A stretch of DNA of 46,939 bases from Deltaproteobacteria bacterium. GTDB lineage: Bacteria > Desulfobacterota > Binatia > UTPRO1. The translations under genes and the position numbers were made by a program. Below, piece after piece: positions 8,384 through 31,128 of this stretch; position 1 is the stretch's first letter; each line of letters begins with the position of its first letter. The notes beneath the pieces were generated by a model. It saw only the letters and a list, made by a program, of their open reading frames with translations, did no database searches and was not told the origin of the DNA. The DNA lies in the NCBI GenBank assembly GCA_029262315.1, contig JAJCZP010000132.1, positions 1-46,939 of the forward strand. The letters are read 5' to 3'.

Positions 8384-10210
8384 TCAGCGAGTCACGCGAG
8401 ACGGCACACAGATCTCGCGCGGGCCAGAGAGAACGACCCGCACTTCTTCGAACTGATTGGCGAGAAAGAGCTCGCTCCCGGCCAGGAGCTTCCGCGGGCT
8501 CGTCTTCACCCGGTAGCACATGAGATGCGTCTCGAGATCGCTGACCAGGGTTCCATTCGCGCTCGCCGGAGCACAGAGACGCACGGGCTTCTTCACCTCG
8601 ACCAGCAAGTCGCCGAATTGATCTTTCGAAGTGACGCTCCCCCTGGTCCGCGCACCTTTTACGTCCCAGCACTTCATGTGGTCGACCGCAGGATCGGCAG
8701 AGGGTGGTGGCGGGTTGCCGCCCGACGCCAACTCCTTCGCGGAGGGAACCAACATCTCCTTCGGCTTCCTGAGATCGACCGAGATGGATCCGAACTGGTT
8801 CACGACGGCGATGTCCTTGAGCCGTTCGATGCGCGGCTCGGTCTGCTTGATCAGGTACCCGACGTAGTGGTCGTCGGCGAACGGCGCGTTCGGGCTCTCA
8901 CCGTTCTTGCTGGTGGGATTGCAGATGCGCCACCGACGCCGCGCCTTGACGAGTGAGGGACCGAACTGATCCTCCAGCGGGAAGTCTTCAATCGCAGGAG
9001 GTGGGGGCTCTCGTCGCAGCTCGTAGCACATGAAGTGGACCGGCACGGTCGGTGTCGGAACAGGAATCGTCGGGCTCGAACTCGACACGCCGGTAGACAG
9101 CGGAGTCGGTGTCGCCGCGGGGGTCGGCGTCGCGGTTCGCAAGTCGGGAGGTGTCGCGGTCTGTGTCGGGGTCGCCGTCATCGGCACCGTGGCAGTCGAA
9201 GCGGGTGTTCCCACGGGCGTCGGTGTCGCCGTTCCCCCCGACGTCAGGGTGGGCGTGCCGAGGGGCGAGACGGTGGGCACGGCGGAGACGGTCGCGGTCG
9301 GGGTGCCGGCAGTCGTCGCGGTCGGGGTGCCGGCAGTCGTCGCGGTCGGGGTGCCGGCGGTCGTCGCGGTCGGGGTGCCGGCGGTCGTCGCGGTCGGGGT
9401 GCCGCTTGGAGGCAGGCTCGGCGTGATGGCTGGAGTGGGCGAGAATACGATCGGCGTCGTTGTGGACTGGATACTCACTGTCGAAGTCGGCTCGGGGCAC
9501 CACGGGCACAGGTCGAGCGCCGCACGTACGTCACCGCCAAGACTCTCGGAGTCGTCGATGCTCAGCCCCAGGCTCGTCACGGTCAAACGTGGCGCCCCGC
9601 TGTCACGCACCGCACCACGCGCCTTCACCCGGAGGGACCTGCCCCCTCCGAACGCGTCAAAGGTCGCACCTTCGGTGAAGAGATCGCCCTTGGAGCTTAC
9701 GGACACGGTGCGTCCACGAATCAAGGTATCGACGAAGCTCACCTGGCACGATCTGGCGGTACAGCGGAGGTCGACTTTCGCCTCGGAGCGGATCTCGCCG
9801 GGCCCTCGAACCTGCAGCACGTTGCCGGCCCTGATGCGCACCCGCCCTTTGGGATGGGACGTCTCGATCGGACCGCGAACGAGGACGGCGCCGGTCGCGA
9901 TCACGTCCACCGCGATCCCCCTTCCGGACGAGCTCAGGCTGCCTCCTCCGGGTCCGTCGACGATGACCACCAGGGCGACGATCTTGAGACTCCTCGCCCC
10001 GGAGACGGGGGCAAGCGGTCCACGAATCGTGACGGTATCGCCCGGCGCATGGATCAGCGTGCGCGTGTTCTTCGTCGTGCACACGGGCGGTGCGCAGTCG
10101 GTAAGCACGACGTGCCCCGCCCACACTGTCGGCACGACGAGCACACCGAGGAGTGCGACACTGGCCGCAACCGTCACGCATCTGAGCACCCGCGTACGCA
10201 TGAGCTTCAT
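8384..10210 (-). CDS. Secreted protein: beta-solenoid, Thr/Pro linker, four C-terminal CY...DQFG repeats
   Basis: A 608-residue modular exported protein. Residues 1-31 form a signal peptide ending VWAG. Residues about 35-235 are short Val/Ile/Gly-rich strands typical of a right-handed beta-solenoid. Residues about 240-390 are a Thr/Pro/Ala linker containing perfect GTPTATTA repeats. From residue 392 to the end are four copies of one module, seen as HFMCYEL...DQFG...ICNPTSKNG, HYVGYLIK...NQFGSISVDLRKP, DHMKCWDVKG...DQFGDLLVEVKKPVRLCAP and HLMCYRVK...NQFEEVRVV...ICVPS. The second copy has lost its cysteines. The same module is common in secreted proteins of Myxococcota-like bacteria (I associate it with DUF7450, from memory). 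A cell-surface or matrix role is inferred. No good ribosome site precedes the ATG; a second ATG lies three codons in. Confidence 0.8.
   Translation of the reverse strand: MKLMRTRVLRCVTVAASVALLGVLVVPTVWAGHVVLTDCAPPVCTTKNTRTLIHAPGDTVTIRGPLAPVSGARSLKIVALVVIVDGPGGGSLSSSGRGIAVDVIATGAVLVRGPIETSHPKGRVRIRAGNVLQVRGPGEIRSEAKVDLRCTARSCQVSFVDTLIRGRTVSVSSKGDLFTEGATFDAFGGGRSLRVKARGAVRDSGAPRLTVTSLGLSIDDSESLGGDVRAALDLCPWCPEPTSTVSIQSTTTPIVFSPTPAITPSLPPSGTPTATTAGTPTATTAGTPTATTAGTPTATTAGTPTATVSAVPTVSPLGTPTLTSGGTATPTPVGTPASTATVPMTATPTQTATPPDLRTATPTPAATPTPLSTGVSSSSPTIPVPTPTVPVHFMCYELRREPPPPAIEDFPLEDQFGPSLVKARRRWRICNPTSKNGESPNAPFADDHYVGYLIKQTEPRIERLKDIAVVNQFGSISVDLRKPKEMLVPSAKELASGGNPPPPSADPAVDHMKCWDVKGARTRGSVTSKDQFGDLLVEVKKPVRLCAPASANGTLVSDLETHLMCYRVKTSPRKLLAGSELFLANQFEEVRVVLSGPREICVPSRVTR
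9291..9404. repeat. 24-bp tandem repeat (about 4.75 copies) in the Thr/Pro linker
   Basis: The unit GTCGCGGTCGGGGTGCCGGC plus four bases is repeated nearly perfectly at 9291, 9315, 9339, 9363 and 9387 (last copy partial). Copies differ only at one A/G position. On the coding minus strand each unit gives the octapeptide GTPTATTA. Because 24 is a multiple of three, copy-number change alters linker length without breaking the frame. Confidence 0.93.
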
Positions 10211-15662: not shown

Positions 15663-16466
15663 CTAGACGACCAGGTCTTCGCCGCCGTTGATTTCTAGCA
15701 CGGTGCCCGTGATCCACTGCGCCTCGTCGGTCGCGAGAAGCCCGACGACGCGCGCGACATCGTCGGTTGTGGTCATGCGGCCACTCGGGTTGCGCTGCGT
15801 CACCTGCTCCGCCATCCACTCGCTCCCGGGAATCTTCCGAAAAGCGGGGGTGTCGGTCACGCCAGCGCGGAGGGCATTCACGGTCACGCCGCCGCCACCG
15901 AGCTCGACCGCAAGCTGGCGCACATGCGCCTCGAGCGCAGCCTTGGCCGCCGAAACTGCCCCGTACCCGGGCAAGACCCGCGTCGAGCCGGCGCTCGTCA
16001 TGGCCAGCACGCGGCTCCCCGTCGTCAACAAGCTCCTGGCGACGGCATCCTGCACCCAGTAGACCAAGCTGTGCGCCATCACGTTCAGCGTCATCTCCAG
16101 CTGCGCGGGAGTCGCCCATTGCGACGGTTCACCGCTCACCAACGGCGTCAGACTACCGAACGCGAGCGAGTGCATGAGCACGCGCACGCGGCCACCACCG
16201 TCCTCGGCAATTCGTGCGGCGAGTGCGTCGAGGACCCGGCGCCGCTTCTCATGATCCGCCGCATTGGTGTTGAAAAACAGCGCCGTCCGCCCCTCGGCCT
16301 CGATAGCGGCCGTGATCTCGCTTACATGCGCCATTCCCGCGCGCCGATCGAGATGCACACCGCAGATGTCGAATCCGCGCCGGGCGAGGTCCCGCGCTGC
16401 CGCCTCACCGAATCCGCTCGAGGCGCCGAGAATCAACGCCCATTGACGCTCGTCGCCGTCCGCCAT
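15663..16466 (-). CDS. Short-chain dehydrogenase, enoyl-ACP reductase (FabI/FabL)-like
   Basis: A 267-residue Rossmann SDR. The cofactor loop is ILGASSGFGEAAA (12-24). The active site has the FabI-type spacing Tyr168-x6-Lys175 (GYGAVSAAKAALEAHVRQLAVEL) rather than the classical Tyr-x3-Lys, and the segment LMHSLAFGSL parallels the substrate-loop start of enoyl reductases. The C-terminus ends ITGTVLEINGGEDLVV as usual for the family. It probably reduces the enoyl-ACP double bond in fatty-acid synthesis or acts on a related enoyl thioester. It is on the opposite strand to the acyl-reduction operon at 17759 and not co-transcribed with it, but shares the fatty-acid theme. A GC-rich 100-base gap separates it from the HExxH gene. 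Confidence 0.82.
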   Translation of the reverse strand: MADGDERQWALILGASSGFGEAAARDLARRGFDICGVHLDRRAGMAHVSEITAAIEAEGRTALFFNTNAADHEKRRRVLDALAARIAEDGGGRVRVLMHSLAFGSLTPLVSGEPSQWATPAQLEMTLNVMAHSLVYWVQDAVARSLLTTGSRVLAMTSAGSTRVLPGYGAVSAAKAALEAHVRQLAVELGGGGVTVNALRAGVTDTPAFRKIPGSEWMAEQVTQRNPSGRMTTTDDVARVVGLLATDEAQWITGTVLEINGGEDLVV

Positions 16467-17124: not shown

Positions 17125-17787
17125 TCAGGACTCGTCGTCGTCCTTCTGCTCTGCCTCCTCTGCGAGCTGGCGCTTCCAATCGAGCATCCGCGCCTTCGCG
17201 CCCTCGGCCTCGGCCTCAGCGATCATGCCCTTCCGCTGGTAGAACATCGAGAGACTCGTGTGCGCGAGGGTCTCCTCCGGGGCGAGTTCGGCGAACTTCT
17301 TGCCCCAGACGATCGCTTCGTCGAACATCTCTTTGTCGGCGTAGGCCAAGGCGATGCCCTGGATGGCATCGATGAATACCGGGTCGATCTCGAGAGCTTC
17401 CTGGTAAGCGGCAATCGCTTGATCGAGCTCACCGTCGGCAAGATGATCTACAGCGCGGTCGAAACACTCATCTTTGGTTGCCATGGCGGCTGGAAGCGTA
17501 ACCGATCGCCCTGACCCGAACAAGCCACCACCGACCTCGGCGGCCACGTTGACACCGCCCGAACGGGTTTCTATCGTCTCCACAATCGGCTTCCCGTTGA
17601 TCGCCCGCACTTGCCTTCGCGAGAGACCCACAACCCCACGTCCAACGACCAGCCTGACTTCGTCGCCCTCATGCCAATAGCTCTCAGCAACCATCTCGCG
17701 ACCGTTCGCCAATCGCACGCGCACTGAGGACGCTACGGTGAGAGAGGGAACACCCGCAATGAGCAACACAGAAATAGGCACCCGCAT
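17125..17787 (-). CDS. TPR protein with a signal-peptide-like N-terminal extension
   Basis: The C-terminal 119 residues (from an internal ATG at 17484: MATKDECFDRAVDHLADGEL) form about two and a half tetratricopeptide repeats (LDQAIAAYQEALEIDP, FDEAIVWGKKFAELAP, SMFYQRKGMIAEAEAEGAKA), a compact protein also found alone in related bacteria. In frame before it lie a signal-peptide-like segment (MRVPISVLLIAGVPSLTVASS) and an SH3-like beta region (VRVRLANGREMVAESYWHEGDEVRLVVGRG). So this is either one exported 220-residue protein or a 119-residue cytosolic TPR protein starting at 17484. The longer form overlaps the divergent luxE-like gene by 29 bases. No strong ribosome site is seen at either start. 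TPR implies protein-protein interaction. Confidence 0.7.
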   Translation of the reverse strand: MRVPISVLLIAGVPSLTVASSVRVRLANGREMVAESYWHEGDEVRLVVGRGVVGLSRRQVRAINGKPIVETIETRSGGVNVAAEVGGGLFGSGRSVTLPAAMATKDECFDRAVDHLADGELDQAIAAYQEALEIDPVFIDAIQGIALAYADKEMFDEAIVWGKKFAELAPEETLAHTSLSMFYQRKGMIAEAEAEGAKARMLDWKRQLAEEAEQKDDDES

Positions 17788-18784
17788 TCGGCGGTATATC
17801 GCTGACCACACGACCGGTGATTTTGGCGAGCTGGCGCTCGCGGCGCACCACTATCAGTACGCACGGAACGACGCGTACCGACGCTTCGTAGATCGCCAGG
17901 AGGGCCCAGCCCCGCAGCGATGGGAGGAAATCCCGGCGGTCCCAGCGTTTGCCTTCAAAGAAGCGGACCTCGCAAGCGCACCAGCCGCCGACGTGTTCCT
18001 GAGCAGCGGCACTACACAGGGGCCGACGCGACGGGCCCGACATCACGTTCCGGACCTCACGCTGTACCATCACGCCGCGCTCACGGGCTTTCAGCGGGCC
18101 GTCTTACCGTCCGGGCAGCGGCGCCCGTTTCTGGTGGCGGCCCCCGAACGCCGCTCACATCCGATGTCATCGCTCGGCGCGATGGTCACCTGGCTTCGCG
18201 AGGCCCACGATAGCGGCACCGAGCCGTCTTTCTTGGTCGAAGGGGCGGTCAATTGCGAGCGATTCGCCAGCGTCCTCGATGCACTCGATCCCAACCAACC
18301 GATCCTGGTGCTCGCCGTCACCGCGGCCCTGCTCCAGCTTGCCGACTACGCCGACCCGCGCGGCCGGTCGTGGACGCTGCCCTCGGGAAGCCTCGTGGTC
18401 GACACCGGCGGATGCAAAGGCTACGCGGAGAATCTCGAGCGCGCGGCGATTCTGGCCCGCTATCGAACCTTGCTCGGCGTCGAGAGCTCCGCGGTGATCA
18501 ACGAGTACGGCATGACCGAAATGTGCTCCCAACTCTATGCGCGTGACGCGAAAGCACACCGCCCTCCACCGTGGGTCCGCTCCCGCGTCTTCGATCCCGC
18601 CACGGGGACGGAGGCGGCACCTGGGCAGGTCGGCATCTTACGGCACCTCGATCTCGCGAACCTCGGGTCGGTCGTGTGCGTACAAACAGAGGACATCGGA
18701 CGGCGAACGGAGACGGGCGTCGAAGTCCTTGGACGAGTTGCCGGCGCAGAGCCGCGTGGCTGCTCGCTGCTCCTCGCCTCGTGA
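17759..18784 (+). CDS. luxE: LuxE-like acyl-protein synthetase (acyl-AMP ligase/transferase)
   Basis: A 341-residue member of the LuxE family of adenylate-forming enzymes, which activate a fatty acid with ATP and pass the acyl group to the LuxC reductase. Visible motifs are the ATP loop SSGTTQGP (82-89), NEYGMTEM (248-255), TEDIG (310-314) and a C-terminal RGCS with Cys335, matching the acyl-accepting Cys of LuxE. The start at 17759 is chosen because the usual LuxE N-terminus (FGELALAAHHYQYARNDAYRRF) follows; a GTG seven codons upstream is the alternative. Its TGA overlaps the ATG of the luxC-like gene by one base. No luxA, luxB or luxD is present, so bioluminescence is not implied. Confidence 0.9.
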   Translation: MSNTEIGTRIRRYIADHTTGDFGELALAAHHYQYARNDAYRRFVDRQEGPAPQRWEEIPAVPAFAFKEADLASAPAADVFLSSGTTQGPTRRARHHVPDLTLYHHAALTGFQRAVLPSGQRRPFLVAAPERRSHPMSSLGAMVTWLREAHDSGTEPSFLVEGAVNCERFASVLDALDPNQPILVLAVTAALLQLADYADPRGRSWTLPSGSLVVDTGGCKGYAENLERAAILARYRTLLGVESSAVINEYGMTEMCSQLYARDAKAHRPPPWVRSRVFDPATGTEAAPGQVGILRHLDLANLGSVVCVQTEDIGRRTETGVEVLGRVAGAEPRGCSLLLAS

Positions 18785-20190
18785 TGAGTACGCCCGTCTC
18801 GGCCTATCACCTCCCTCGTGGGGTCGCCCGACCACCATCGCGGCGCATCCCCTGGAGATCGACCCACGGAACCGCCGCCCCGGCGACCGTCGGCGAGGCG
18901 ACACTGGTGGCCGCCGGCTTGGAGCTACCCGAGCTGTCGCCCGCCGCCATCACCGATGTGGCAGACCGACTGCGCGCCGCCGGAGCGGATCTCCGCCTCG
19001 TCCCGGTGGAGGAGCGCATCGCCGTCATCGATCGCGTCGCCGCACGTTGGTTGAGTCCCGACTTCCCGCTCCGCCGTCTCGCGGTCGAACGACTCCCCCT
19101 CGTGACGGGCTATCCGGCGCGTGTTGTCAGCCAAGCCCTCGACAACCTCTGGGGCGCACTTCGCGCCAGCGAGCTGCAGGGAACCGTGCGCGCGGAGTTC
19201 AGCGACGTCCGTAGTCCATCAGGCCTGGCCCTCCACATCCTCTCCGGCAACGTTCCGGGATCCGGCGTCTTCGGGCTGATCGCGGCGCTTCTTGCGGGTG
19301 TGCCGAGCCTCGTCAAAACCGCCCGCCGCGAGCCTCTCCTTCCGGCACTGATCGCGGGCTCACTTGCGGACGAAGACGCGCGCCTCGGCGCCGCGTTGGC
19401 CGTGACGCCCTGGACCGGGGGCGATGCGGGACTCGACGGTGCCGCCATTGCGGCCGCCGACCTCGTCCTCGCCTACGGTCGCAGCGAGAGCCTGGCCGAG
19501 ATCGCCGCCCACGAGCCCACGCGATTGCTGTCTTTCGGACCGCGCGTGAGTGTCGGGCTGATCGCGGGTGAAGCCCTCGATCGGCATACGGCGGCGACCT
19601 GCGCAATGCAGGTGGCCCTCTTCGACCAACAGGGCTGTCTGTCCCCACAAATCCTTTTCGTCGAGGATACCAGCGCGACTCCACGTTTCGTCGAGGCCGT
19701 CCTCGCCGAGCTCGGGCGGCTCGAGACCACGCTGCCACGCGCACCGCTCTCGCTTGCCGAGACGACCGCCAGTTGGCGGCACCTCGAGCGCGCGCGCTGG
19801 CGCGCGCAGGAAGGCGAAGCCCTCAGCGTTCACGCAGGTCCGAGCGGCGGCTTCAGCATCGTCTGCGATCGCAGTGGTACCGTCCCGACGAGCCCGCTGA
19901 ATCGCCATGTGGTGATCGTGCCCATCCTTCATCTCGGTGCGGCCGAGCAGACCCTCTCGCAGATCGCGAGCTGCGTAGAAGCCGTCGGCTATGCCGGTCC
20001 CACCGCCCGCCTGTCCGAGGCCGTGGCCGTGGCCACCGCGTGCGCCGCGCCGCGACTCTGCCCGCTCGACCGTATGCAACAGCCACCCTTCGCGTGGCGC
20101 CAGAGTGGGCATGATCGATTGGCCTGTTTCGGCGCCTCAGCCACACCGGCGTCGGCGCCCGCGCCCCGGATGGCGACATCGGCAGCATGA
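18784..20190 (+). CDS. luxC: LuxC-like acyl reductase (fatty aldehyde-forming)
   Basis: A 468-residue protein of the LuxC family, related to aldehyde dehydrogenases, which reduces an enzyme-bound acyl thioester with NADPH to a fatty aldehyde. The catalytic Cys285 lies in the characteristic DQQGCLSPQ. The nucleotide-binding segment HILSGNVPGSGVFGLI (151-166), the VKTARREPLLP loop and the RLLSFGPRVSVGLIAGEAL region are typical. The start overlaps the LuxE stop (TGATG), and the gene's own stop overlaps the aminotransferase ATG (ATGA), so the three proteins are translationally coupled. The acyl chain length is not evident. Confidence 0.92.
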   Translation: MSTPVSAYHLPRGVARPPSRRIPWRSTHGTAAPATVGEATLVAAGLELPELSPAAITDVADRLRAAGADLRLVPVEERIAVIDRVAARWLSPDFPLRRLAVERLPLVTGYPARVVSQALDNLWGALRASELQGTVRAEFSDVRSPSGLALHILSGNVPGSGVFGLIAALLAGVPSLVKTARREPLLPALIAGSLADEDARLGAALAVTPWTGGDAGLDGAAIAAADLVLAYGRSESLAEIAAHEPTRLLSFGPRVSVGLIAGEALDRHTAATCAMQVALFDQQGCLSPQILFVEDTSATPRFVEAVLAELGRLETTLPRAPLSLAETTASWRHLERARWRAQEGEALSVHAGPSGGFSIVCDRSGTVPTSPLNRHVVIVPILHLGAAEQTLSQIASCVEAVGYAGPTARLSEAVAVATACAAPRLCPLDRMQQPPFAWRQSGHDRLACFGASATPASAPAPRMATSAA

Positions 20191-21437
20191 CGAGGGCGCG
20201 TCCGGGGCCTGGCGCGCGCGCGGCGGCACGAGCACTCACGGACACGTTTCGGCAACACGTCGCGCAAACGTCGGCGGACCCTCTCGGCATCGTCGTCGCG
20301 CGCGCGCGCGGCTCGTGGATCGTCGACGTCCACGGCCGACGCTACCTCGATCTCCTGAGCGGCATGGGGGTGTCCAATCTCGGCCACGGCAATGCCGCCG
20401 TCCGACGCGCATGCCGAGCGCAGTTGGACCGCTATCTCCACGTCATGGTGTACGGCGAGTTCGTCCTCGCCGCACAGGTGCAACTCGCCGACCAGCTGAC
20501 CACACTTGCCGGTCATCCCTTCGAACAGGCGTACTTCACCAACAGCGGGGCCGAAGCCATCGAGGGCGCCCTGAAGACCGCGCGGAAACACACCAAGCGC
20601 GCGGGCCTGGTGGCCTTCGATCTCGGGTTTCACGGCGACACCCTCGGAGCGCTCTCCCTTGGTGGCAACCCCCGCTATCGGGATCCCTTCCTGCCCCTCT
20701 TACCGCACACGACGATCCTTCCATGGTGCGACGCTGAGGCCCTCCGCGGGATCGATCGCCGCACCGCCGCGGTCGTCATCGAGCCCGTACAGGCAGAGGG
20801 CGGCGTGCGGACCGCTGATCCAGCCTTTCTCCGGCTGCTCCGGGATCGTTGCACGCAGGTCGGCGCGCTCCTGATCTTCGACGAGGTCGTCACAGGACTC
20901 GGCCGTACCGGCACGCTCTTCGCCTTCGAACAATCGGGCATCCGACCAGATCTGTTGGTCCTGGCAAAAGCGTTGGGCGGCGGACTTCCGCTCGGCGCGT
21001 TTCTCGGCTCCCGCACGGTACTCGGAACCCTGGCGCGAAACCCTCCCCTGGGTCACGTGACGACGTTCGGGGGCCATCCACTCTCATGTGCCGCGGCCGT
21101 GGCCGCACTCGAGGTGCTCACGAGCCGCCGCCTGGTCGCACGAGCCGCCGCGCGGGGTCGGACCTTCCTGGCTGGCCTCCAGCAGCTGCAACAGGCGCAT
21201 CCGGTGATCCGCGCGGTCCGCGGCGTCGGCCTCCTCCTCGCCATCGAGTTCCGCAGCCCGCGGGCAACGCGACGGTTCGCGGCGGCCTGCCTCGCGCGCG
21301 GTCTCATCCTGAACTGGACGCTGCACCGCGACACGGTGGTCCGGCTGGCGCCGCCACTCACGATCTCACCCGCCGAGATTCGACACGCCCTCGACGCCCT
21401 CGACAGCGCATTGCGGTCGCTGCGAACCTCGACCTGA
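20187..21437 (+). CDS. Class III PLP-dependent aminotransferase
   Basis: A 416-residue aminotransferase of the ornithine/acetylornithine/omega-amine class. The PLP Schiff-base Lys261 is in LVLAKALGGGLPLGAF, the pyridine-binding Asp232 is in IFDEVVTGLGRTG, and the phosphate-binding segment is TNSGAEAIEGALKTAR (118-133), with GFHGDTLGALSLGG and the C-terminal TTFGGHPLSC. Class III enzymes often transfer amino groups to or from terminal aldehydes. Since it is the third gene of a luxE-luxC operon that makes a fatty aldehyde, amination of that aldehyde to a long-chain primary amine is the most economical proposal. It could also act on another aldehyde or keto acid. It ends 8 bases from the convergent prfB end. 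Confidence 0.92.
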   Translation: MTRARPGPGARAAARALTDTFRQHVAQTSADPLGIVVARARGSWIVDVHGRRYLDLLSGMGVSNLGHGNAAVRRACRAQLDRYLHVMVYGEFVLAAQVQLADQLTTLAGHPFEQAYFTNSGAEAIEGALKTARKHTKRAGLVAFDLGFHGDTLGALSLGGNPRYRDPFLPLLPHTTILPWCDAEALRGIDRRTAAVVIEPVQAEGGVRTADPAFLRLLRDRCTQVGALLIFDEVVTGLGRTGTLFAFEQSGIRPDLLVLAKALGGGLPLGAFLGSRTVLGTLARNPPLGHVTTFGGHPLSCAAAVAALEVLTSRRLVARAAARGRTFLAGLQQLQQAHPVIRAVRGVGLLLAIEFRSPRATRRFAAACLARGLILNWTLHRDTVVRLAPPLTISPAEIRHALDALDSALRSLRTST

Positions 21438-21445
21438 CGCCTAAT

Positions 21446-22568
21446 TCAGCTCTCCAACTTCGAGAACAGATAGGCTTCGATGAAGCCGTCGAGATCTCCA
21501 TCGAGGACATCATCGGCTTTGCCGGTCTCGAACGCGGTGCGATGGTCCTTCACCATGCGATAGGGATGCAGCACGTAGGAGCGAATCTGGCTCCCGAACC
21601 CGATCTCTTTCTTGTTCTTGGCGAACTCATCGTGCCGCTCGCGTTGTTTCTGCAGTTCGAGTTCGTACAAGCGCGCGCGGAGCACCTTCATCGCCATGGC
21701 GCGGTTCTTGTGCTGGGAACGCTCGTTCTGGCACGCCACGACGATGCCCGTTGGCAAGTGGGTCAGCCGGACGGCAGAGTCAGTCTTGTTCACGTGCTGC
21801 CCGCCAGCTCCGCTCGAGCGGTAGGTATCGACGCGCAGATCTGACTCGTCGACCTCGACCTCGACGTCGTCCTCGATCTCGGGGTAGACGAACGCCGACG
21901 CGAATGAGGTATGGCGTCGCGCGTTGGCATCGAACGGCGAGATACGGACCAAGCGATGGATGCCCGCCTCGGCACGCAGATAACCGTAGGCGAAGGAGCC
22001 GCGCAGAATCACGGTCGCGCTCTTGATTCCCCCACCCTCACCTTCCTGTTGCTCGATCAACTCGACGCTGTACCCCTTGCGCTCGCCCCACCGGAGATAC
22101 ATGCGCAACAACATCTCGGCCCAGTCCTGCGCTTCGAGCCCCCCGGCACCGGGATGAATGTTCAGGATGGCGTTGCCGGAATCGTGCTCGCCGCCGAGCA
22201 TCTGCCTCATTTCGAGGGCGGTGATCCCCTGCGTACTGCTCGCCTCTTTCGCAACGCCTTCGGCGAGCGCCTCCTCGTCCCCTTCCTGCGCAAGTTCGAG
22301 GAATACGAGTGCGTCGTCGAGCTCGGTTCGCTGCGTCCGCCACTCATCAAGGATCGCGAGGAGCTGCGACCGCTCTTTCTGGACCTTCTGGGCGGCCTCG
22401 TTGTCGTTCCAGAAGGCCGGCGCCTGGATCAGCGTGTCGAGTTCTGCGAGCCGCGCGGTCGTCCCAGGGATGTCAAAGATGCCCCCTGAGCGTCTCCAGG
22501 CGGCCCTCAAGACCCGCCAGACGCTCTTTCAACTCCCCCGGGGTGATCGTCGGTTCGCTCGTGCTCAT
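21446..22568 (-). CDS. prfB: Peptide chain release factor 2, with programmed +1 frameshift
   Basis: RF2 ends translation at UGA and UAA. The gene is read in two frames: codons 1-31 from the ATG at 22568 to 22476, then a +1 shift over the in-frame UGA (22475-22473) into the frame that runs to 21446, giving about 373 residues (E. coli RF2 has 365). The N-terminal part (MSTSEPTITPGELKERLAGL) has a strong ribosome site (GGAGG) and overlaps the lnt stop (ATGA). The main part shows the stop-codon recognition tripeptide SPF (RISPFDANARR) and the GGQ catalytic loop (GAGGQHVNKTDSAVRLTH). Annotating only the long frame from 22510 would miss the true N-terminus. Confidence 0.97.
22472..22487 (-). promoter_or_regulatory. 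RF2 autoregulatory frameshift signal
   Basis: On the minus strand the sequence reads AGG GGG CAT CTT TGA C. AGGGGG is the internal anti-SD-pairing element, three bases upstream of the CTT slip codon, followed by the in-frame UGA at codon 32 and a C. This is the same architecture as E. coli prfB (AGG GGG TAT CTT TGA C). When RF2 is scarce, UGA is read slowly and ribosomes shift +1. Confidence 0.97.
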
Positions 22569-24220
22569 GATACCTGCCTCCGCATCCGGAATACGACGGG
22601 ACCGACCAGCCCGAGTGCCACGACCAGCATGACGCAGGTAGCGACGAACACATCGCCATACTGCGCGTACACCGTCGGCGCGTCGACCCATCGAACGGTA
22701 TCGACCCGCCACGCGGTCTCGAAAAGATCCGTCCGCCAGCGAATCGTGCCGTCGATTTCGACCATAGCAGAGAACCCGGTATTCGCCACGCGCACGAGCG
22801 GCATCCGGTTCTCCACGGCTCGCAGGGTTCCCATCGCGAGGTGTTGGTGGGGAGCCGACGTCCGTCCGAACCAGGCGTCGTTGGTGATGTTGACGAGGAA
22901 GTCGGCGCCTCCGTACGCGAACCGCCGCGTCAAGTCAGGGAAAATGCCCTCGTAGCAGATCAGGATTCCGAAGCCGCCATATGGGGTGGTGGCCACGACC
23001 GCCTCGCGACCGGGCCGAAAGTCGCCGACCCCCTCGACGATCTTGTGCACGAAGTAGTACACGTCCGCGAGCGGCACGAACTCGCCAAACGGAACCAACT
23101 TGATCTTGTCGTACGACTGTTCGTCCCCGGCGGGCGCCACGACATACGCACGGTTGTGGAGCACCGGCTCGCCCTCGTCGTAGCCGTAGGCCGCGCTCCC
23201 GAACACCAGCCATACGTCGAGCCGGCGCGCCAACGTGCGGATCCTCTCCCGCAGCTCGCCCTCGTTCTGAAAGAAGATGGGCGCCGCCGCCTCCGGCCAG
23301 ACTACGATCTTGGCTCCGGCAGCGACCGCCTGCTCCGTCAACGACGCGTAGTGCTCAATGGTGCTCTCCTGATACGCCGGATCCCACTTCACGTCTTGGG
23401 GAATATTGCCCTGAACCAGGCCGACGCGAACTTCGCCTGCCGTCGGCAACGCATGGAGTGCCTGCACCCGCGCGTACCCCCATCCAACGCACAGCATCAG
23501 GAGCGCGGCCACCGCGGCGAGCGGACCGACACGCGGCGCCTCCCCATCACGCGAGCGGCGTACCGCCTGATAGACGATGACGTTCACGAGCACGATCAGC
23601 GCCGCGATACCGTGCACGCCGGTAAACTCGGCGAACTGAATCAGGTGTCGGCTGCGCCACTGCGAATAGCCGAGGCCGACCCATGGGAATCCACCGAGAA
23701 TCCATCCACGGACCCATTCGAGCGCGACCCAGAGCGGCGGCGCGGCCAACGCGAGCGGAATGCGGTACCGACTCGCGTACGCACAGCCCCAGACGAACGT
23801 GGCGGGAAAGCATCCCAGGAACGCGCACATAAGGACCAGAGGCCCGACGGCGATGAGTGGTGACAGCGCCGTGTAGTGACTGATCGTGAATACGATCCAG
23901 TAGAGGGTGCCCAAGAAGAACGCGAAGCCGCCAAGCCAACCCATCCGGAACGCACGCCCGAGGCTACCGCCAAGCCCGACCCACAGCAGCGGCACCAGAG
24001 CGATCCATGCGAGCGGGCTCCAGTCGAACGACGGAAACGCCAGCGCAAGCGCGGCACCACCGAGCACGGCGACGACACTCCGCGACCCCGCCGACATATC
24101 GGAACCCACCGGCTGGGCGAGGCGTTCCGCCGGCACCATGGAATCGGCCCCGGCCACGCTATCCGGGTGGAATGCCGGGTCGGATGCCGGGTCCGACGGA
24201 TGCGTAGGCTCCCCCGTCAT
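22565..24220 (-). CDS. lnt: Apolipoprotein N-acyltransferase
   Basis: A 551-residue inner-membrane enzyme that N-acylates the terminal Cys of lipoproteins, the last lipoprotein maturation step. About six to seven transmembrane helices (residues 45-225) precede the nitrilase-like domain. The catalytic triad is visible as Glu in VVWPEAAAP, Lys in DKIKLVPFGEFVPL and Cys in LICYEGIFPDLTRRF. The C-terminal helix ends VVFRMRRQVS. The start at 24220 is chosen because it overlaps the ybeY stop (ATGA); the open frame continues 74 codons upstream inside ybeY and is not coding there. The first 45 residues are Ser/Pro/Asp-rich and unusual for the family, so an internal ATG at MVPAERL or MSAGSRS is possible. 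Confidence 0.96.
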   Translation of the reverse strand: MTGEPTHPSDPASDPAFHPDSVAGADSMVPAERLAQPVGSDMSAGSRSVVAVLGGAALALAFPSFDWSPLAWIALVPLLWVGLGGSLGRAFRMGWLGGFAFFLGTLYWIVFTISHYTALSPLIAVGPLVLMCAFLGCFPATFVWGCAYASRYRIPLALAAPPLWVALEWVRGWILGGFPWVGLGYSQWRSRHLIQFAEFTGVHGIAALIVLVNVIVYQAVRRSRDGEAPRVGPLAAVAALLMLCVGWGYARVQALHALPTAGEVRVGLVQGNIPQDVKWDPAYQESTIEHYASLTEQAVAAGAKIVVWPEAAAPIFFQNEGELRERIRTLARRLDVWLVFGSAAYGYDEGEPVLHNRAYVVAPAGDEQSYDKIKLVPFGEFVPLADVYYFVHKIVEGVGDFRPGREAVVATTPYGGFGILICYEGIFPDLTRRFAYGGADFLVNITNDAWFGRTSAPHQHLAMGTLRAVENRMPLVRVANTGFSAMVEIDGTIRWRTDLFETAWRVDTVRWVDAPTVYAQYGDVFVATCVMLVVALGLVGPVVFRMRRQVS

Positions 24221-24750
24221 CGTCCGCCGCCCACGCTCCGACGACGCGTCCGGCTTTCCGAAGTCCGTCCTGTCCGCCTCACGACCCCCAACGGCGTAGC
24301 GAGCGCCGGCAGCGCCGCGCGCACCTCGCGTGCGCGGCGTGCCATGCGACGCTCTTCCGCGGGCGAGATCTCGTGGTCGTAGCCTACGAGATGCAGAATG
24401 CCGTGGATCAACAACGCATCGAGTCGTGCGGCCAGCGCGCAATGGCTCTCACGTGCTTGCCGCGTCGCGGTGTCGATCGAGATGACCACATCACCGAGCG
24501 GTGCGTGCGGAAACTGCGGCATCGCCGGGAGCCCGCCACTCTCGTCGAGGGCGAAGGCCAGGACGTCGGTTGGACGGTTCCGCCGCCGATACCGGCGGTT
24601 CAGCGATTGCATCTCGTCGTCGCCAACGAGCGAGAGACTCAATTCACGGCGACCGAGACGGAGTACGCGCAGCACGTGCCGTCCGCGCGTGGCCACATAT
24701 CCCTGCCAGCGATCACCTGCCGGGCTACGGGAGGACGCCGCTACCGGCAT
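24217..24750 (-). CDS. ybeY: Endoribonuclease YbeY (rRNA maturation)
   Basis: A 177-residue YbeY, a zinc-dependent endoribonuclease for 16S rRNA 3' processing and ribosome quality control. The metal motif HGILHLVGYDH matches the family's HGxLHLxGYDH. The upstream strand LSLVGDDEMQSLNRRYRRRNRPTDVLAFAL is the usual conserved region. The ATG at 24750 starts seven bases after the phoH stop; the frame is open further up, but that part lies in phoH. The C-terminal 25 residues (Arg/Thr/Ser/Gly) extend past the normal family end. It sits in the common phoH-ybeY pair. Confidence 0.95.
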   Translation of the reverse strand: MPVAASSRSPAGDRWQGYVATRGRHVLRVLRLGRRELSLSLVGDDEMQSLNRRYRRRNRPTDVLAFALDESGGLPAMPQFPHAPLGDVVISIDTATRQARESHCALAARLDALLIHGILHLVGYDHEISPAEERRMARRAREVRAALPALATPLGVVRRTGRTSESRTRRRSVGGGR

Positions 24751-24757
24751 TGCGCGG

Positions 24758-25804
24758 TCAGGATTCGCTCTGCTCTGACGAGCGCTCGGCGCGATCGTAG
24801 GCGGTGATGATGTCCTGAACGAGGGGGTGACGCACCACATCGCGCTCGGAGAACTGGACGAACTCGATCCCGTCGATGTCGCGTACGATGCGCTGCGCTT
24901 CCTTGAGGCCGGACACCTTTCCCGAAGGCAGATCGGTCTGTGTAATGTCGCCCGTGATGATGGCTTTCGACCCGTAACCGAGGCGCGTCAGAAACATCTT
25001 CATCTGCTCGGGCGTCGTATTCTGCGCCTCGTCGAGAATGACGAACGAGTCGTTCAGTGTGCGTCCACGCATGAAAGCGAGCGGCGCGACCTCGATCGTG
25101 CCGCGATCGAGCATCTTCTGCGCGCGATCGAAATCGACCATGTCGTGCAAGGCGTCGTACAGGGGGCGGAGGTAGGGATTGACCTTCTCCGCCAGATCAC
25201 CGGGAAGAAACCCCAACTTCTCGCCGGCCTCGACCGCGGGCCGCGTGAGAATGATGCGATTGAAACTTTGCTTCAACACCTCGGCCACGCCCATGGCCAT
25301 CGCCAAGTAGGTTTTCCCCGTGCCCGCGGGGCCGATCGCGAACACGATGTCGTGATGGCGGATGGCCTCGATGTAGGCCTTCTGAATCACGCTCTTAGGC
25401 GTAATTACGCGCTTGTTGGCCGGAATGTAGATGGTGTCGAGAAAGATGTCGCGAAGGTTGGCGTTGTGATCGCTCGACAGAATGCGGAGCGCGTAATTGA
25501 CGTCGCTGGCGTAGACCGGATAGCTCCGCTCGATCACGCCGTAGAGCTGCGTGAGCACATTGGAAGCGAGCTCGCACTCGACGTCGTCGCCGGCAATCGA
25601 CAGCGTCTTGTCCGACACGCCGATCCGCACGCTCAGGAACGCCTCGATGACCTTCAAGTGCTCGTCTTGATGGCCGCAGAGATCGTTCAAGGTACCGTGA
25701 TCGCGGAATTCCAGTCGCAACACGCCGGGGGCGGCCTCCGCGGCCGGCGTCCGCGGCTCGGGCGTGATCGCCGCCGACACCCGCGCGCGATCTCTGGCAC
25801 TCAT
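24758..25804 (-). CDS. phoH: PhoH-like ATPase
   Basis: A 348-residue PhoH-family P-loop ATPase (PhoL/YbeZ type). Residues about 28-110 form the N-terminal KH-like region, followed by the Walker [10 protein letters not shown] (158-166), Walker [11 protein letters not shown] (254-263) and the sensor segment [12 protein letters not shown]. The PhoL/YbeZ type is linked to RNA metabolism and works with YbeY, encoded next. Its ATG overlaps the alaS stop (ATGA). The operon context gives no sign of phosphate regulation. Confidence 0.96.
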
Positions 25805-28419
25805 TCAACCAACTCGTAGACCTTCGCGAGGGCCTCGTCGAGACGCCCTGGATCCTTGCCGCCCGCCTGCGCGAAATCCGGGCGGCCGCCTCCGCCGCCC
25901 CCAACGAGCGGGGCGATCTGTTTGATCAGATTTCCCGCGTGGACGCGTTTCACGAGCTCCTTGCTGACAGCCGCAATCAAGGTGACCTTGGCGCCGTCGG
26001 TCGTTCCCAGGGCGATGACGCTCGGCGCGAGCTTCTCCTTCAGGCGATCCACCAGCTCGCGCAGGGCCTTATCATCGAGATCGTCGACGCGTGCCGCGAG
26101 GACTTGAAACCCGTCGACCTGCCGGGCCTGCGCCGCCAGATCGCCGCTCTGGGCCCCGGCCCGGTCGCGCTGCAGTTTCGCGAGCTTCTTCTCCATCTCG
26201 CGCTGCTCGGCGAGCAACTTCTCGAGACGATCGACGGCGTCGTCGTCCGACGCCCGCAGCGTCTCGCGAATCTGCCGCAAGTAGTGCTCGCGCTGCTGGA
26301 TCCAGGCCAGCGCACCAGGACCCGAGGCGGCCTCGACCCGGCGCACGCCGGCCGCCACGCCGGTCTCCCCGTGAAACTTGAACAACCCGATGTCGCCCGT
26401 CCGGACCACGTGAGACCCGCCGCACAGCTCGAGCGAGAAGGCGCCCATCTGCACGATACGGACGCGGTCGCCGTACTTGTCGCCGAAGAACGCGAGCGCC
26501 CCGCGCTTCATCGCCTCGTCGAACGAGAGCTCTTCGCTGACGCACTCGACGTTGGCGCGAATGCGCACGTTGACCTCGTCTTCGATCGCCTTCAGCTGCG
26601 CGTCGTCGACCGGCTTCGTGTGATTGAAGTCGAAGCGCAGACGATCCGCCGCAACCAACGAGCCCGCCTGACGCACATGCTCGCCGAGCTGCACGCGAAG
26701 CACCCCGTGCAACAGGTGTGTCACCGAATGATTCAAACGGATGGCCGCGCGCCGAGACGCGTCGATGGTGAGCCGCAGGGTGTCGCCCGGCGCGATCCCA
26801 CCGCGGACGACGACCACGCGATGAACCGTGAGATCGGGCTGCGGTCGCAAGGTGTCGATGACTTCGAGAAGATCGCCGCGCTCGGTCGTGAGGGTGCCGA
26901 CGTCGCCGACCTGGCCACCCGACTCGCCGTAGAAGGGTGTCTCCTCGGTGACGAGCTCGGCCGTCTCGCCCTCGCGAATCCCTCCAGGGCGCTCTTCCCC
27001 CTTCACCGACAGCGTCGTCACCGGCGACTCCCATTCCGTGATGCGGTCGCCGACGAAGCGTGAGCGACGCCCGTCGGCGGATGCATCGAGTGTCACGAAC
27101 TTCTTGGCGCCGCGACCACGAGCCCGCTGCGCCTCCATCATGCGCGCAAAGCCGGCATCGTCGACTCCGAGCCCACGACTCCGCATAATGTCTTCGGTCA
27201 AATCGAGCGGAAATCCGTAGGTATCGTAGAGCCGAAACGCGACCTCGCCAGAAAGAGCCCCGCCAGACCCGAGCTTGGCGACTTCTGCTTCGAGCAGACT
27301 CAGCCCCTTGTCGAGCGTCTCCGCGAAACGGCTCTCCTCAGTCCGGACGACTTCGGCGATCGATGATTGTCGTGTGCGAAGATCCGGATAGGCACCGCCA
27401 AGCGTCGTGGCCACGGTCTCGACGAGGCGCGTGAGGAACGGCCCCTCGAGACCGATCATCTTCCCATGGCGCGCCGCCCGGCGCAGGATCCGCCGCAGCA
27501 CGTACCCGCGCCCCTCGTTGGAGGGCAGGACGTGGTCGGCGATCATGATGGAGACGGCACGCGCATGATCCGCGATCACGCGAAAGGAAACGTCGTCCTC
27601 GGCCCGAACCCCATATTCCCGACCGGCCAACGCCTCGGTTGCACCGATGATGCCGCGAAAGAGATCTGTATCGTAGTTGCTCGGCACGTCCTGCAGCACG
27701 GCGGTGACGCGCTCGAGGCCCATCCCCGTATCGACGTGTTTCGACGGGAGGTCGCGGAGCGAGCGATCGGCTTCGCGATTGTACTGGATGAAAACCAAGT
27801 TCCAGAGCTCGATGTAGCGAGCGCATCCGGCATTCACCGCACAGACGTGTGTTGCGTCTCCCTGCTGATCGCACGTGCCTGGACCGCGGTCGAAGTGAAT
27901 CTCGGAACAGGGACCGCACGGCCCCACCTCGCCCATCTCCCAGAAGTTCTCCTCCTCGAATCGAAGGACACGTTCTTTCGGAAGATCGGTCACCCGCGCC
28001 CACTCGGCCGCGGCCTCGTCGTCGGTGGTATAGACGGTCGCGTACAACTGGGACTTCGGCAGACCCCAGACATCGGTGAGGAGTTCCCAGGCCCAGCTGA
28101 TGGCCTCGGGCTTGTAGTAGTCACCGAACGACCAGTTCCCGAGCATCTCGAACAGCGTGTGGTGATAGGTGTCGCGCCCGACCTCTTCGAGGTCGTTGTG
28201 CTTGCCCGAGAGGCGCAGGCACTTTTGCGAGTCGGCAACGCGGAGCGCCGCAGGAGTCACATCGCCGAGAAAGATCTTCTTGAACTGCACCATCCCCGCA
28301 TTCGTGAACATCAGGGACGGATCGCCCTCGGGGACGATTGGCGCGCTGTCGACGATGCGGTGCTCCCGCGCACGGAAGAAATCGAGAAACCCGCTTCGAA
28401 TGTCACTACCGCTCGGCAC
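25801..28419 (-). CDS. alaS: Alanyl-tRNA synthetase
   Basis: A full-length AlaRS of 872 residues (E. coli 876). The class II catalytic core begins SGFLDFFRAREHRIV, with motif 2 around HHTLFEMLGNWSFGDYYK. The editing domain has the zinc motif HSVTHLLHGVLR and later CGGSHV. A coiled coil (VDRLEKLLAEQREMEKKLAKLQ) links to the C-Ala domain, with the Gly-rich VGGGGGGRPDFAQAGGKDP near the end. It starts at a GTG with GGAAGGG upstream, seven bases after the recX stop. It is part of the recA-to-prfB operon. Confidence 0.98.
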   Translation of the reverse strand: MPSGSDIRSGFLDFFRAREHRIVDSAPIVPEGDPSLMFTNAGMVQFKKIFLGDVTPAALRVADSQKCLRLSGKHNDLEEVGRDTYHHTLFEMLGNWSFGDYYKPEAISWAWELLTDVWGLPKSQLYATVYTTDDEAAAEWARVTDLPKERVLRFEEENFWEMGEVGPCGPCSEIHFDRGPGTCDQQGDATHVCAVNAGCARYIELWNLVFIQYNREADRSLRDLPSKHVDTGMGLERVTAVLQDVPSNYDTDLFRGIIGATEALAGREYGVRAEDDVSFRVIADHARAVSIMIADHVLPSNEGRGYVLRRILRRAARHGKMIGLEGPFLTRLVETVATTLGGAYPDLRTRQSSIAEVVRTEESRFAETLDKGLSLLEAEVAKLGSGGALSGEVAFRLYDTYGFPLDLTEDIMRSRGLGVDDAGFARMMEAQRARGRGAKKFVTLDASADGRRSRFVGDRITEWESPVTTLSVKGEERPGGIREGETAELVTEETPFYGESGGQVGDVGTLTTERGDLLEVIDTLRPQPDLTVHRVVVVRGGIAPGDTLRLTIDASRRAAIRLNHSVTHLLHGVLRVQLGEHVRQAGSLVAADRLRFDFNHTKPVDDAQLKAIEDEVNVRIRANVECVSEELSFDEAMKRGALAFFGDKYGDRVRIVQMGAFSLELCGGSHVVRTGDIGLFKFHGETGVAAGVRRVEAASGPGALAWIQQREHYLRQIRETLRASDDDAVDRLEKLLAEQREMEKKLAKLQRDRAGAQSGDLAAQARQVDGFQVLAARVDDLDDKALRELVDRLKEKLAPSVIALGTTDGAKVTLIAAVSKELVKRVHAGNLIKQIAPLVGGGGGGRPDFAQAGGKDPGRLDEALAKVYELVE

Positions 28420-28425
28420 GTTGGA

Positions 28426-28932
28426 TCACCCTTCCTCCTCGAGCACCGCGTTCACCACATCCTCCGGATGACCGCGACCGACCAGAAATCGATACGCCCG
28501 GGCCCGGTCGGCCGCCGTGGTGAGAGGCAGAGCACGGAAGCGACGCGCGAGAGCGCGCCGGGCGAGATCGACCGGACGACGGTCCTCCAGCACTGCCGCA
28601 ATGGCACGCGTCACGACGGTATCGGCCACTCCGCGAAGAGTCAATTCGTGCCGTACGCGAAGCTCGCCATGCCCTCGTTCCAGCAGGAGCTCTTCGGCGC
28701 GCCGGTGCGCCAGTACCGTATCGTCGACGTAGCGGCGCTCGGTCAGGAAGACCAGTGTGTCAGCGACGACCGCATCGGCGAACCCGCGGGTGCGTAGCCG
28801 GGACTCAACCTCGCTCGCCGAGCGTGGGGCTCGGGCGAGCCAGCGACAGGCTTCATCCTGCGCCGAGGCCTGCAGCGCCTCCGCGGAAGGGTCAGAAACG
28901 CGCGATCTTGAAACCCGCCGATTCACTGTCAT
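28426..28932 (-). CDS. recX: Regulatory protein RecX
   Basis: A 168-residue RecX, which modulates RecA filament growth. Three tandem three-helix repeats are visible: ACRWLARAPRSASEVESRLRTRGF, RYVDDTVLAHRRAEELLLERG with HELTLRGVADTVV, and ALARRFRALPLTTAADRARAYRFLVGRGHPEDVVNAVLEE. I place the start at the ATG 28932, which overlaps the end of pilT by 41 bases; no better start follows before the conserved region. The long open frame upstream of this ATG is a pilT shadow. Its job fits the recA gene two positions upstream. Confidence 0.88.
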   Translation of the reverse strand: MTVNRRVSRSRVSDPSAEALQASAQDEACRWLARAPRSASEVESRLRTRGFADAVVADTLVFLTERRYVDDTVLAHRRAEELLLERGHGELRVRHELTLRGVADTVVTRAIAAVLEDRRPVDLARRALARRFRALPLTTAADRARAYRFLVGRGHPEDVVNAVLEEEG

Positions 28933-30049
28933 CGGCCTCGTCGGTCTTGTCGAACTGGTCCCAACGCGCATCGCTGGTGGAGCCGATACCGCGGACCTTG
29001 AGGGCGAAATCGTCGGGGTTCGTCGCCTGCGCGAGCGCCTCGTCGTACGTGATGAAGTCGCCCCGGTAGAGGCCCATGAGCGACTGATCGAACGTCTGCA
29101 TGCCGTAGGTGGCATGACCACGCGCGATTGCGTCGGTGATCTCGTGGGTCTTTTCCTTGATCGCAATACATTCGCGAATGAGCGCCGTCGAAAGCAACAC
29201 TTCGACCGCCGGCACCATGCCGTTCCCGTCGGCCCGCCGCACGAGACGCTGGCTGACGATACCACGGATGATCGACGAGAGGATCAGTCGCATCTGATCG
29301 CGTTGATGCTCGGGGAACGCCGAAATCGCGCGGGTGATGGTCTCGCGAGCGTCCAGCGTATGCAGTGTGCTCATCACGAGGTGACCCGTCTCGGCGGCAA
29401 GAATGGCCGTCTCGATGGTCTCCAGGTCGCGCATCTCGCCAACCAGAATGACGTCGGGATCCTGCCGGAGCGCACCGCGCAGCGACTCTGGAAAACTCCG
29501 GGCGTCGTAGCCGATCTCGCGTTGGTTGATGATGCACTTGTTGTCGGAATGCGTGTACTCGATCGGGTCTTCGATGGTGATGATGTGCCGGTCGTGGCGC
29601 TGATTGATGTGATTGATCATCGCGGCCAGGGTCGTACTCTTGCCGCTCCCCGTGGTGCCGGTGACCAGAATCAATCCGCGATGCTCGAGCGCGATCTGTT
29701 CGACGATCTGCGGCAGATGCAGATCGGTGATCGACTTCACCTGCGGTGGAATCAACCGCAGCGCGATGCTGATCTCCCCCCGCTGTCGGAAGATGTTGAC
29801 GCGGAACCGGCCCGAGCCCGCCAGCGCGTAGGAGAGATCGGCCTGGAGGCGTTCGGTCAGCTGGGCGCGATGGTAATCATCGAGCAGGATCTCGAGGAAG
29901 CCAGACATCGACTCCGAAGTGAGCGTAGGCGCGCCCGCGAGGGGCTCGAGCTTCCCGTGCGTTCGGAGCATCGGCGGGACGCCGACCTTGAGATGGATGT
30001 CCGATGCCTCGACCTTGCAGGCGTGTTCGAGAATCTTATCAAACTCCAT
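28892..30049 (-). CDS. pilT: Type IV pilus retraction ATPase PilT (PilT/PilU family)
   Basis: A 385-residue secretion ATPase. The N-terminal PAS-like domain (SDIHLKVGVPPMLRTHGKLEPL) is followed by Walker A GTTGSGKST (131-139), the Asp box ITIEDPIEYTHSD, Walker B ILVGEMRDLETI (201-212) and the His box TGHLVMSTLHT (221-231). The C-terminal motif that is AIRNLIRE in classical PilT is degenerate here (ALIRECIAIKEKTHEI), and GMQTFDQSLMGLYRGDFITYDEAL looks closer to PilU. It would drive pilus retraction at the inner membrane. No other pilus gene is in the window. It lies 32 bases after recA and overlaps recX, an unusual position. Confidence 0.94.
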   Translation of the reverse strand: MEFDKILEHACKVEASDIHLKVGVPPMLRTHGKLEPLAGAPTLTSESMSGFLEILLDDYHRAQLTERLQADLSYALAGSGRFRVNIFRQRGEISIALRLIPPQVKSITDLHLPQIVEQIALEHRGLILVTGTTGSGKSTTLAAMINHINQRHDRHIITIEDPIEYTHSDNKCIINQREIGYDARSFPESLRGALRQDPDVILVGEMRDLETIETAILAAETGHLVMSTLHTLDARETITRAISAFPEHQRDQMRLILSSIIRGIVSQRLVRRADGNGMVPAVEVLLSTALIRECIAIKEKTHEITDAIARGHATYGMQTFDQSLMGLYRGDFITYDEALAQATNPDDFALKVRGIGSTSDARWDQFDKTDEADDSESAGFKIARF

Positions 30050-30081
30050 ACGGCTCGCTGCTCCAGGTGCGGCGTCATGGG

Positions 30082-31128
30082 CTATTCCGCACTGCCATTG
30101 CTGCCATTATCCTGCGCTACGATGAGGCCGAACTTCTCTCGAACGGCCTGCTCTATGGCATCGGCAGTTTCTGGATTTCCCTTGAGGAATTCTTTCGTAT
30201 TCTCTCGCCCCTGGCCTATCCGCTCGCCCTTACAGGAGTACCAGGACCCACTCTTCTCGACGATGCCCATTTCGACACCCATGTCGACGAGCTCGCCCTC
30301 GCGCGAAATGCCGAGCCCGTAGACGATATCGAACTCGGCCTCCCGAAACGGTGGCGCGACCTTGTTCTTGACGACCTTCACACGGGTGCGACTTCCGACG
30401 ATCTGATCACCTTGCTTGATGGCCGCGATCCGCCGAATGTCGAGCCGCACCGATGAATAGAATTTGAGCGCGTTGCCGCCCGTGGTCGTCTCCGGATTGC
30501 CGAACATGACGCCGATCTTCATCCGAATTTGATTGATGAAGATGACGATTGTGTTCGACTTCGAGATCGTGCCGGTGAGCTTCCGGAGCGCCTGCGACAT
30601 CAGTCGTGCTTGCAGGCCCATTTGCGGATCGCCCATGTCGCCCTCGATCTCGGCACGAGGCACGAGCGCGGCCACCGAATCGACCACGAGCACGTCGATG
30701 GCGCCGCTCCGCACAAGCGTTTCAGCGATCTCGAGCGCCTGCTCGCCGTTGTCGGGCTGTGAGATGAGAAGGTCTTCCGTCTTCACGCCGAGCTTCCGCC
30801 CGTAGATGACGTCGAGCGCGTGCTCCGCATCGACGAAAGCGCAAATGCCGCCCTTACGCTGCGCTTGCGCCACCACCTGCAAGGCGAGGGTCGTCTTGCC
30901 CGACGATTCCGGACCGTAGATCTCCACCACGCGACCGCACGGCAGGCCACCCACACCGAGCGCCACATCGAGACCGAGCGAGCCTGTTGAAATGGTTTTG
31001 ACGTCGCGAATCGAGGCGTTTTCCCCGAGCTTCATGATCGAGCCCTTGCCGAATTGCTTCTCGATCTGACTGACGGCGCGATCGATCGCGCGATCGCGGT
31101 TGCTCGTTTCTGTCGTGGTTCCGGCCAT
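30082..31128 (-). CDS. recA: Recombinase RecA
   Basis: A 348-residue RecA for homologous recombination and SOS induction. Walker A is GPESSGKTT (72-80), followed by [11 protein letters not shown], the Walker B region [14 protein letters not shown], loop L1 region [19 protein letters not shown], and loop L2 with [22 protein letters not shown]. The C-terminal tail is short and mildly acidic, as usual. There is no intein. AGGGAGAGG precedes the ATG. It is the first gene of the minus-strand operon extending to prfB, with a good promoter about 210 bases upstream. Confidence 0.99.

Follow-up and report, generated by a model that had tools for sequence, protein, structure and literature searches.

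A LuxE-LuxC-aminotransferase gene set in Binatia as a candidate route from carboxylic acids to primary amines

We analyzed a stretch of 46,939 nucleotides (hereafter the window; contig JAJCZP010000132.1, assembly GCA_029262315.1) from a bacterium of the class Binatia, in which a LuxE-like acyl-protein synthetase, a LuxC-like acyl-thioester reductase and a class III aminotransferase dependent on pyridoxal phosphate (PLP) are encoded in one operon. This operon probably specifies a three-step route from a free carboxylic acid to a primary amine, whatever the acid may be. A first-pass annotation, made from the DNA letters alone, had proposed that it converts fatty acids to long-chain amines. The arrangement proved to be conserved and this proposal is probably right in outline: co-presence of the genes, their fusion, a distinct aminotransferase clade and a second pairing in other phyla support joint action and make amination the most probable fate of the aldehyde. 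The term "long-chain" did not hold in the same way, as it had been taken from the family name.

The gene set in Binatia

The first-pass annotation suggested a search of other genomes for the same arrangement. Our Binatia sample comprised 58 genomes from 40 genera and 15 families. LuxC was found in 48 of them, spread over 13 families, and all 48 also encode LuxE and an orthologous aminotransferase. Both were absent from the nine LuxC-negative genomes that could be judged (0/9; six of family f2, together with G001, G026 and G040), in which the top aminotransferase match reached at most 376 bits, the level of ArgD, compared with at least 549 bits for true orthologues, truncated ones included. In a tenth LuxC-negative genome, G051 (80% complete), LuxE is present and cut off by a contig end. 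We conclude that the trio recurs across Binatia as an all-or-none set which, to judge from the nine trio-free genomes, was lost in its entirety about four separate times. No phage relatives were found.

Of the 40 loci retrieved at length, 32 have the three genes side by side; in the others the genes are close together or one of them has been relocated. The aminotransferase gene lies elsewhere in the genome in G009 and G045, and in G011 the LuxE gene is 8 kb off. The genome that contains the window (5.92 Mb, 99.96% complete) has a single LuxC, a single LuxE and seven class III aminotransferase matches, yet the trio is kept together class-wide; the linkage is therefore not due to chance.

A single reading frame encodes both LuxC and the aminotransferase throughout family f6 (eight of eight genomes) and in locus L083; the fusion loci include L045, L047, L050, L051, L053, L054, L083 and L194. 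The fused protein of L045, for example, has 930 amino acids, of which 64-507 correspond to LuxC and 537-929 to the aminotransferase. Such fusions argue strongly that the aminotransferase acts on the aldehyde that LuxC makes.

One trio-free genome, G001, carries unrelated DNA with the remnant of a DNA-methyltransferase-like gene at the expected place of luxE (contig C21; L196, positions 1-1000), and retains the neighboring genes for a tetratricopeptide repeat (TPR) protein and a short-chain dehydrogenase/reductase (SDR). This site is close to the contig end, and either a replacement or a contig-end artefact is possible.

Identity of the enzymes and proposed chemistry

The three reading frames, their ends, their TGATG and ATGA overlaps and the catalytic residues named in the first-pass annotation were all recovered exactly (Table 1). 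The proteins exceed the Pfam cut-offs for LuxE (PF04443, 46.6 bits, cut-off 24.9), LuxC (PF05893, 157.1 bits, cut-off 21) and Aminotran_3 (PF00202, 338.8 bits, cut-off 30.5). On inspection of the sequences, LuxE has the motifs SSGTT at 82, TGGxKG at 216 and YGMTE at 250 and a C-terminal RGC335, LuxC has DQQGC285LSPQ, and the aminotransferase has D232 in addition to the PLP lysine K261. Among relatives, Cys335 of LuxE is kept in 40/40, Cys285 and Asn156 of LuxC in 41/41, and Lys261 of the aminotransferase in 39/39.

The proposed pathway builds on the observed genes, residues, linkage, co-presence, co-absence and fusion, and takes each reaction and its direction from the chemistry of the enzyme families. 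LuxE would use ATP to convert the acid to an acyl-adenylate and then load the acyl group onto its C-terminal Cys335, from which the group would move to Cys285 of LuxC. LuxC would reduce this thioester to an aldehyde with NAD(P)H. The aminotransferase, carrying PLP on Lys261 and drawing on an amino acid donor (probably glutamate), would turn the aldehyde into a primary amine. Gene overlaps and the LuxC-aminotransferase fusions of relatives suggest a tight coupling that would channel the reactive aldehyde.

The LuxC and LuxE proteins were modelled with AlphaFold (predicted local distance difference test scores of 88.8 and 92.7, respectively). In the PDB, the LuxC model comes closest in structure to Photobacterium LuxC (7xc6_A; E 7e-19, 19% identity), with aldehyde dehydrogenases ranking lower. 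The LuxE model resembles PaaK-type adenylating ligases in fold, and the LuxE sequence matches the LuxE chain of the same complex (7xc6_E; phmmer, E 7.6e-9). The fatty acid reductase of luminous bacteria thus shares with the Binatia pair the families, folds and catalytic cysteines, that is, acyl-adenylation and cysteine-borne acyl transfer by LuxE and thioester reduction by LuxC. It differs in that the Binatia LuxC is only about 19% identical and both proteins stay far below the curated equivalogs of bioluminescence (LuxE NF052244, 44.8 bits, cut-off 550; LuxC NF052251, 69.9 bits, cut-off 750); in addition, the Binatia operon has an aminotransferase instead of luciferase and another gene order. 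Judged by these scores, the operon's LuxE and LuxC are different enzymes from those of luminescence, with which they share their families. No luxAB luciferase or other lux genes adjoin the operon, although the whole genome was not searched for luciferase, and the LuxD acyltransferase family PF02273 had no match in the genome, nor did it match the control sequences.

Among the NCBIfam models listed, the operon aminotransferase falls under every cut-off, with its top scores to ArgD models. It reaches 337 bits to ArgD (TIGR00707, cut-off 410), whereas a separate ArgD in the same genome (L152) reaches 474.7 bits; it also falls short of the putrescine aminotransferase PatA (TIGR03372, 268.7 bits, cut-off 658) and of PigE (NF053554, 298.6 bits, cut-off 850), the latter match covering the aminotransferase part only. 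PigE, of prodigiosin synthesis, is likewise a class III aminotransferase that acts on an aldehyde and is fused to a second domain, but it is not built with LuxC and acts on another precursor. In the tree, the Binatia operon aminotransferases form one clade (support 100), apart from ArgD, AstC, PatA, GabT, PuuE and BioA. A protein encoded on a plasmid of Aureibacter (Bacteroidota), 43.5% identical and without luxEC beside its gene, falls inside this clade on a long branch.

Two residues bear on the substrates. The arginine of the HGR motif binds the substrate carboxylate in ArgD, AstC and GabT; motif comparison showed that Asp151 (HGD151T) replaces it in Binatia, where this aspartate is invariant. 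Arg386 is retained; in the alignment it takes the position of the arginine to which amino acid donors bind through their alpha-carboxylate. The kept Arg386 and the change from HGR to HGD together suggest that the donor is an amino acid and that the acceptor lacks the usual carboxylate, and the change argues against a substrate resembling ornithine or gamma-aminobutyrate. The nearest solved aminotransferase structures are of the PatA and ArgD/LysJ types. They share the fold and the PLP lysine with the Binatia enzyme and differ in having HGR or HGK, whereas the Binatia enzyme has HGD, its own clade and LuxEC as a steady partner.

Two natural product pathways offer a parallel. In the synthesis of myxochelin B (reductase domain of MxcG, and MxcL) and of zeamine (Zmn14 and Zmn12), a thioester reductase has been proposed to supply an aldehyde to an aminotransferase (PMC3547906). 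As in the operon, thioester release is reductive and is followed by transamination to a primary amine. The acyl group there comes from a carrier protein of a nonribosomal peptide or polyketide synthase and is released by a reductase domain, whereas in Binatia a free acid would be handled by LuxE and LuxC. An open-access literature search, outside which most subscription papers lie, found no paper on a LuxE-LuxC-aminotransferase pathway; the nearest work concerns flagellin-glycosylation islands.

LuxE and LuxC elsewhere, and neighboring genes

As a single-sequence LuxC query of genome contigs gave no match, other phyla were scanned with a LuxE alignment, covering 84,980 species genomes. A class III aminotransferase adjoins LuxE in 16 of about 75 non-Binatia loci, standing beside LuxE or LuxE-LuxC (L076, L085, L087, L099, L103, L104, L110, L111, L116, L120, L121, L123, L126, L129, L137 and L140). 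Apart from an extra long-branch copy in L103, the placeable aminotransferases of these loci belong to a different clade (14 rows, support 98), found in at least five phyla: Myxococcota (Polyangium, Minicystis and others), Omnitrophota, Chlamydiota, Bdellovibrionota and Eremiobacterota. Since this second clade is separate, LuxEC must have acquired a class III aminotransferase partner on at least two occasions. Its usual gene order is aminotransferase-LuxE-LuxC, HGL replaces HGD, and the two arginine positions hold Leu/Met and mostly Ser/Thr. Its neighbors (folK, an Rrf2-type regulator with SUF genes, thioredoxin reductase and a leuC-like gene, all named by eye) pointed to no common pathway.

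The first-pass annotation had also proposed a LuxC tree, in which aminotransferase-linked copies might form a clade. LuxC evolves too fast to show a single clade, and its phylogeny alone cannot establish one origin in Binatia: the quick tree needs four changes. A tree constrained to one Binatia clade was better, and such a clade is not rejected (approximately unbiased test, p 0.73).

Other LuxE-LuxC pairs adjoin an SDR and often transporters (Pantoea, Azospirillum, a Lactiplantibacillus plasmid), and their LuxC proteins form one clade (support 98). Operons of this kind with ABC or NCS2-type transporters were seen in Lactiplantibacillus, Pantoea, Azospirillum, Bacillus and Paenibacillus (L171, L172, L173, L089, L093 and L098) and are likely carboxylate-to-alcohol units. 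The units of Pantoea, Azospirillum, Paenibacillus and the Lactiplantibacillus plasmid resemble the Binatia operon as luciferase-free LuxE-LuxC pairs and differ in their partners, which are an SDR and transporters, with no aminotransferase. Genes for luxE and luxC are also known from flagellin-glycosylation islands of Aeromonas and Enterobacteriaceae (PMC7874193, PMC4875605). Because LuxEC occurs in these settings too, we regard it as a general carboxylate-reducing module; "replaces light emission by amination", as the first-pass annotation put it, is a poor description of the operon, and the link to fatty acids comes from family membership only. Separately, a tandem pair of LuxE-like genes without LuxC was seen in a metagenome-assembled genome of Nitrospirae (L144, 3468-5854).

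Table 1. Operon genes, their junctions and the two upstream genes in the window
Feature	Position	Strand	Details
luxE-like, ATP-dependent acyl-protein synthetase	17759..18784	+	ATG start, TGA stop; 341 amino acids; Pfam LuxE
luxC-like acyl-thioester reductase	18784..20190	+	ATG start; 468 amino acids; nucleophile Cys285, Asn156; Pfam LuxC
Class III (fold type I) PLP aminotransferase	20187..21437	+	ATG start; 416 amino acids; Lys261, HGD151T motif, Arg386; Pfam Aminotran_3
luxE/luxC stop/start overlap TGATG	18782..18786	+	junction CGTGATGAGT; read from sequence
luxC/aminotransferase start/stop overlap ATGA	20187..20190	+	junction GCATGACG; read from sequence
Divergent TPR-repeat protein	17125..17811	-	signal-like N terminus; Pfam TPR_2
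FabL-like SDR	15663..16466	-	Tyr168-x6-Lys motif; top NCBIfam match FabL, under cut-off

Neither upstream gene was retained as part of the pathway. The TPR gene adjoins luxE in many families and is also kept in eight of the nine genomes without the operon, on which ground it was rejected as a pathway partner. Its 5' end overlaps that of luxE at 17759-17811, so divergent promoters would have to sit in each other's coding sequence; the annotated starts may be off. The enoyl-ACP-reductase-like SDR does lie 1.3 kb away, as first described, but the divergent TPR gene intervenes, and 12 of 12 genomes that carry the operon, from seven families, lack the SDR. We rejected it as a fourth enzyme and consider it a syntenic neighbor.

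Downstream of the operon, a gene for an SCP2 sterol/lipid carrier lies directly 3' of the aminotransferase gene in three genera of family f5 (L039, L041 and L192), and in L192, where the aminotransferase gene is apart from luxEC, the SCP2 gene is still with it. A zinc alcohol dehydrogenase gene takes this position in families f11, f13 and f15 (L043, L046, L049 and L052). In the window, positions 21446-31128 hold prfB, lnt, ybeY, phoH, alaS, a recX-like gene, a pilT-like gene and recA (named by eye), and the prfB-lnt-ybeY-phoH stretch adjoins the operon in several other Binatia families too. Far upstream, on the minus strand (8384-10210), the N- and C-terminal parts of one protein are separated by a Thr/Pro/Ala-rich stretch of tandemly repeated TPTATTAG units.

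Alternative explanations and meaning

Several observations weigh against the proposed acid-to-amine route or limit its reach. The substrate range of the luminescence enzymes cannot be transferred to LuxC and LuxE, as both score so far under the curated cut-offs. The donor in the second clade need not be the same, because Arg386 is not kept there. The zinc alcohol dehydrogenase neighbor might point to an alcohol as a further product or substrate, and the neighbors of the operon, mostly housekeeping genes, give no hint of the product.

The nature of the acid is where the readings diverge most. SCP2 linkage in family f5 weakly favors a lipophilic compound, and a lipophilic acid is weakly favored overall. 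It is a tentative suggestion that Binatia and, independently, other phyla run a near-core line from free fatty acids to long-chain primary amines, which would go into an amine-headed lipid or a signal not yet described. The same chemistry may instead serve a short or polar acid or an amino acid, for instance gamma-aminobutyrate to putrescine or an omega-amino acid to a diamine, a sub-case that differs in substrate only and that we hold possible, though doubtful. Diamine-type products would fit the ArgD/LysJ and PatA (putrescine) types nearest among solved aminotransferases; Asp151, in the place of the carboxylate-binding arginine, could bind a cationic amine; the PaaK-type ligases nearest to the LuxE model use small aryl acids; and the LuxE-LuxC-SDR units elsewhere adjoin small-molecule transporters. 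On the other side stand the long-chain acyl groups known for the LuxE and LuxC families and the SCP2 gene found with the aminotransferase in one family.

Other readings change the chemistry itself. The aldehyde could go to an alcohol or to a glycan or lipid aldehyde, with another job for the aminotransferase in the operon. The SDR partners and flagellin-glycosylation islands of LuxE-LuxC elsewhere are in keeping with such a fate, as is the zinc alcohol dehydrogenase next to the aminotransferase in three families; the LuxC-aminotransferase fusion, the strict co-loss and the second, independent class III pairing make it unlikely. Nor do we expect the pathway to run in reverse, with the aminotransferase deaminating a primary amine to an aldehyde that LuxC oxidizes to an acyl thioester for catabolism. 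Such a direction would fit the reversibility of class III aminotransferases and of aldehyde dehydrogenase folds, the catabolic role of PatA-type enzymes and the published account of Binatia as methylotrophs and alkane degraders (PMC8262859). A pathway running this way would nevertheless have no need of an ATP-using LuxE with an acyl-acceptor cysteine, which 48/48 genomes carry, and no amine transporter or amine oxidase lies nearby; we rate this direction improbable. An accidental linkage, in which the aminotransferase is the host's ornithine or diaminobutyrate enzyme, can hardly be credited: its best library scores are indeed to ArgD models, but the genome has its own ArgD above the cut-off elsewhere, the clade is distinct, the substrate arginine is gone and the gene is lost jointly with luxEC. 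Identity with ArgD was rejected on these grounds. The first-pass annotation had raised an ornithine or diaminobutyrate orthologue unlinked to luxEC as the outcome that would count against it; we found a clade of its own and a conserved linkage instead.

If the acid-to-amine route is correct, the enzymes known for feeding luciferase would be a special case of a broader carboxylate-reducing module, which evolution has wired to an aminotransferase at least twice. The operon would also be a compact natural three-gene route from acid to amine, a conversion for which engineers currently combine carboxylic acid reductases with transaminases. For the uncultured Binatia, it would provide a nearly universal and testable product class, primary amines.

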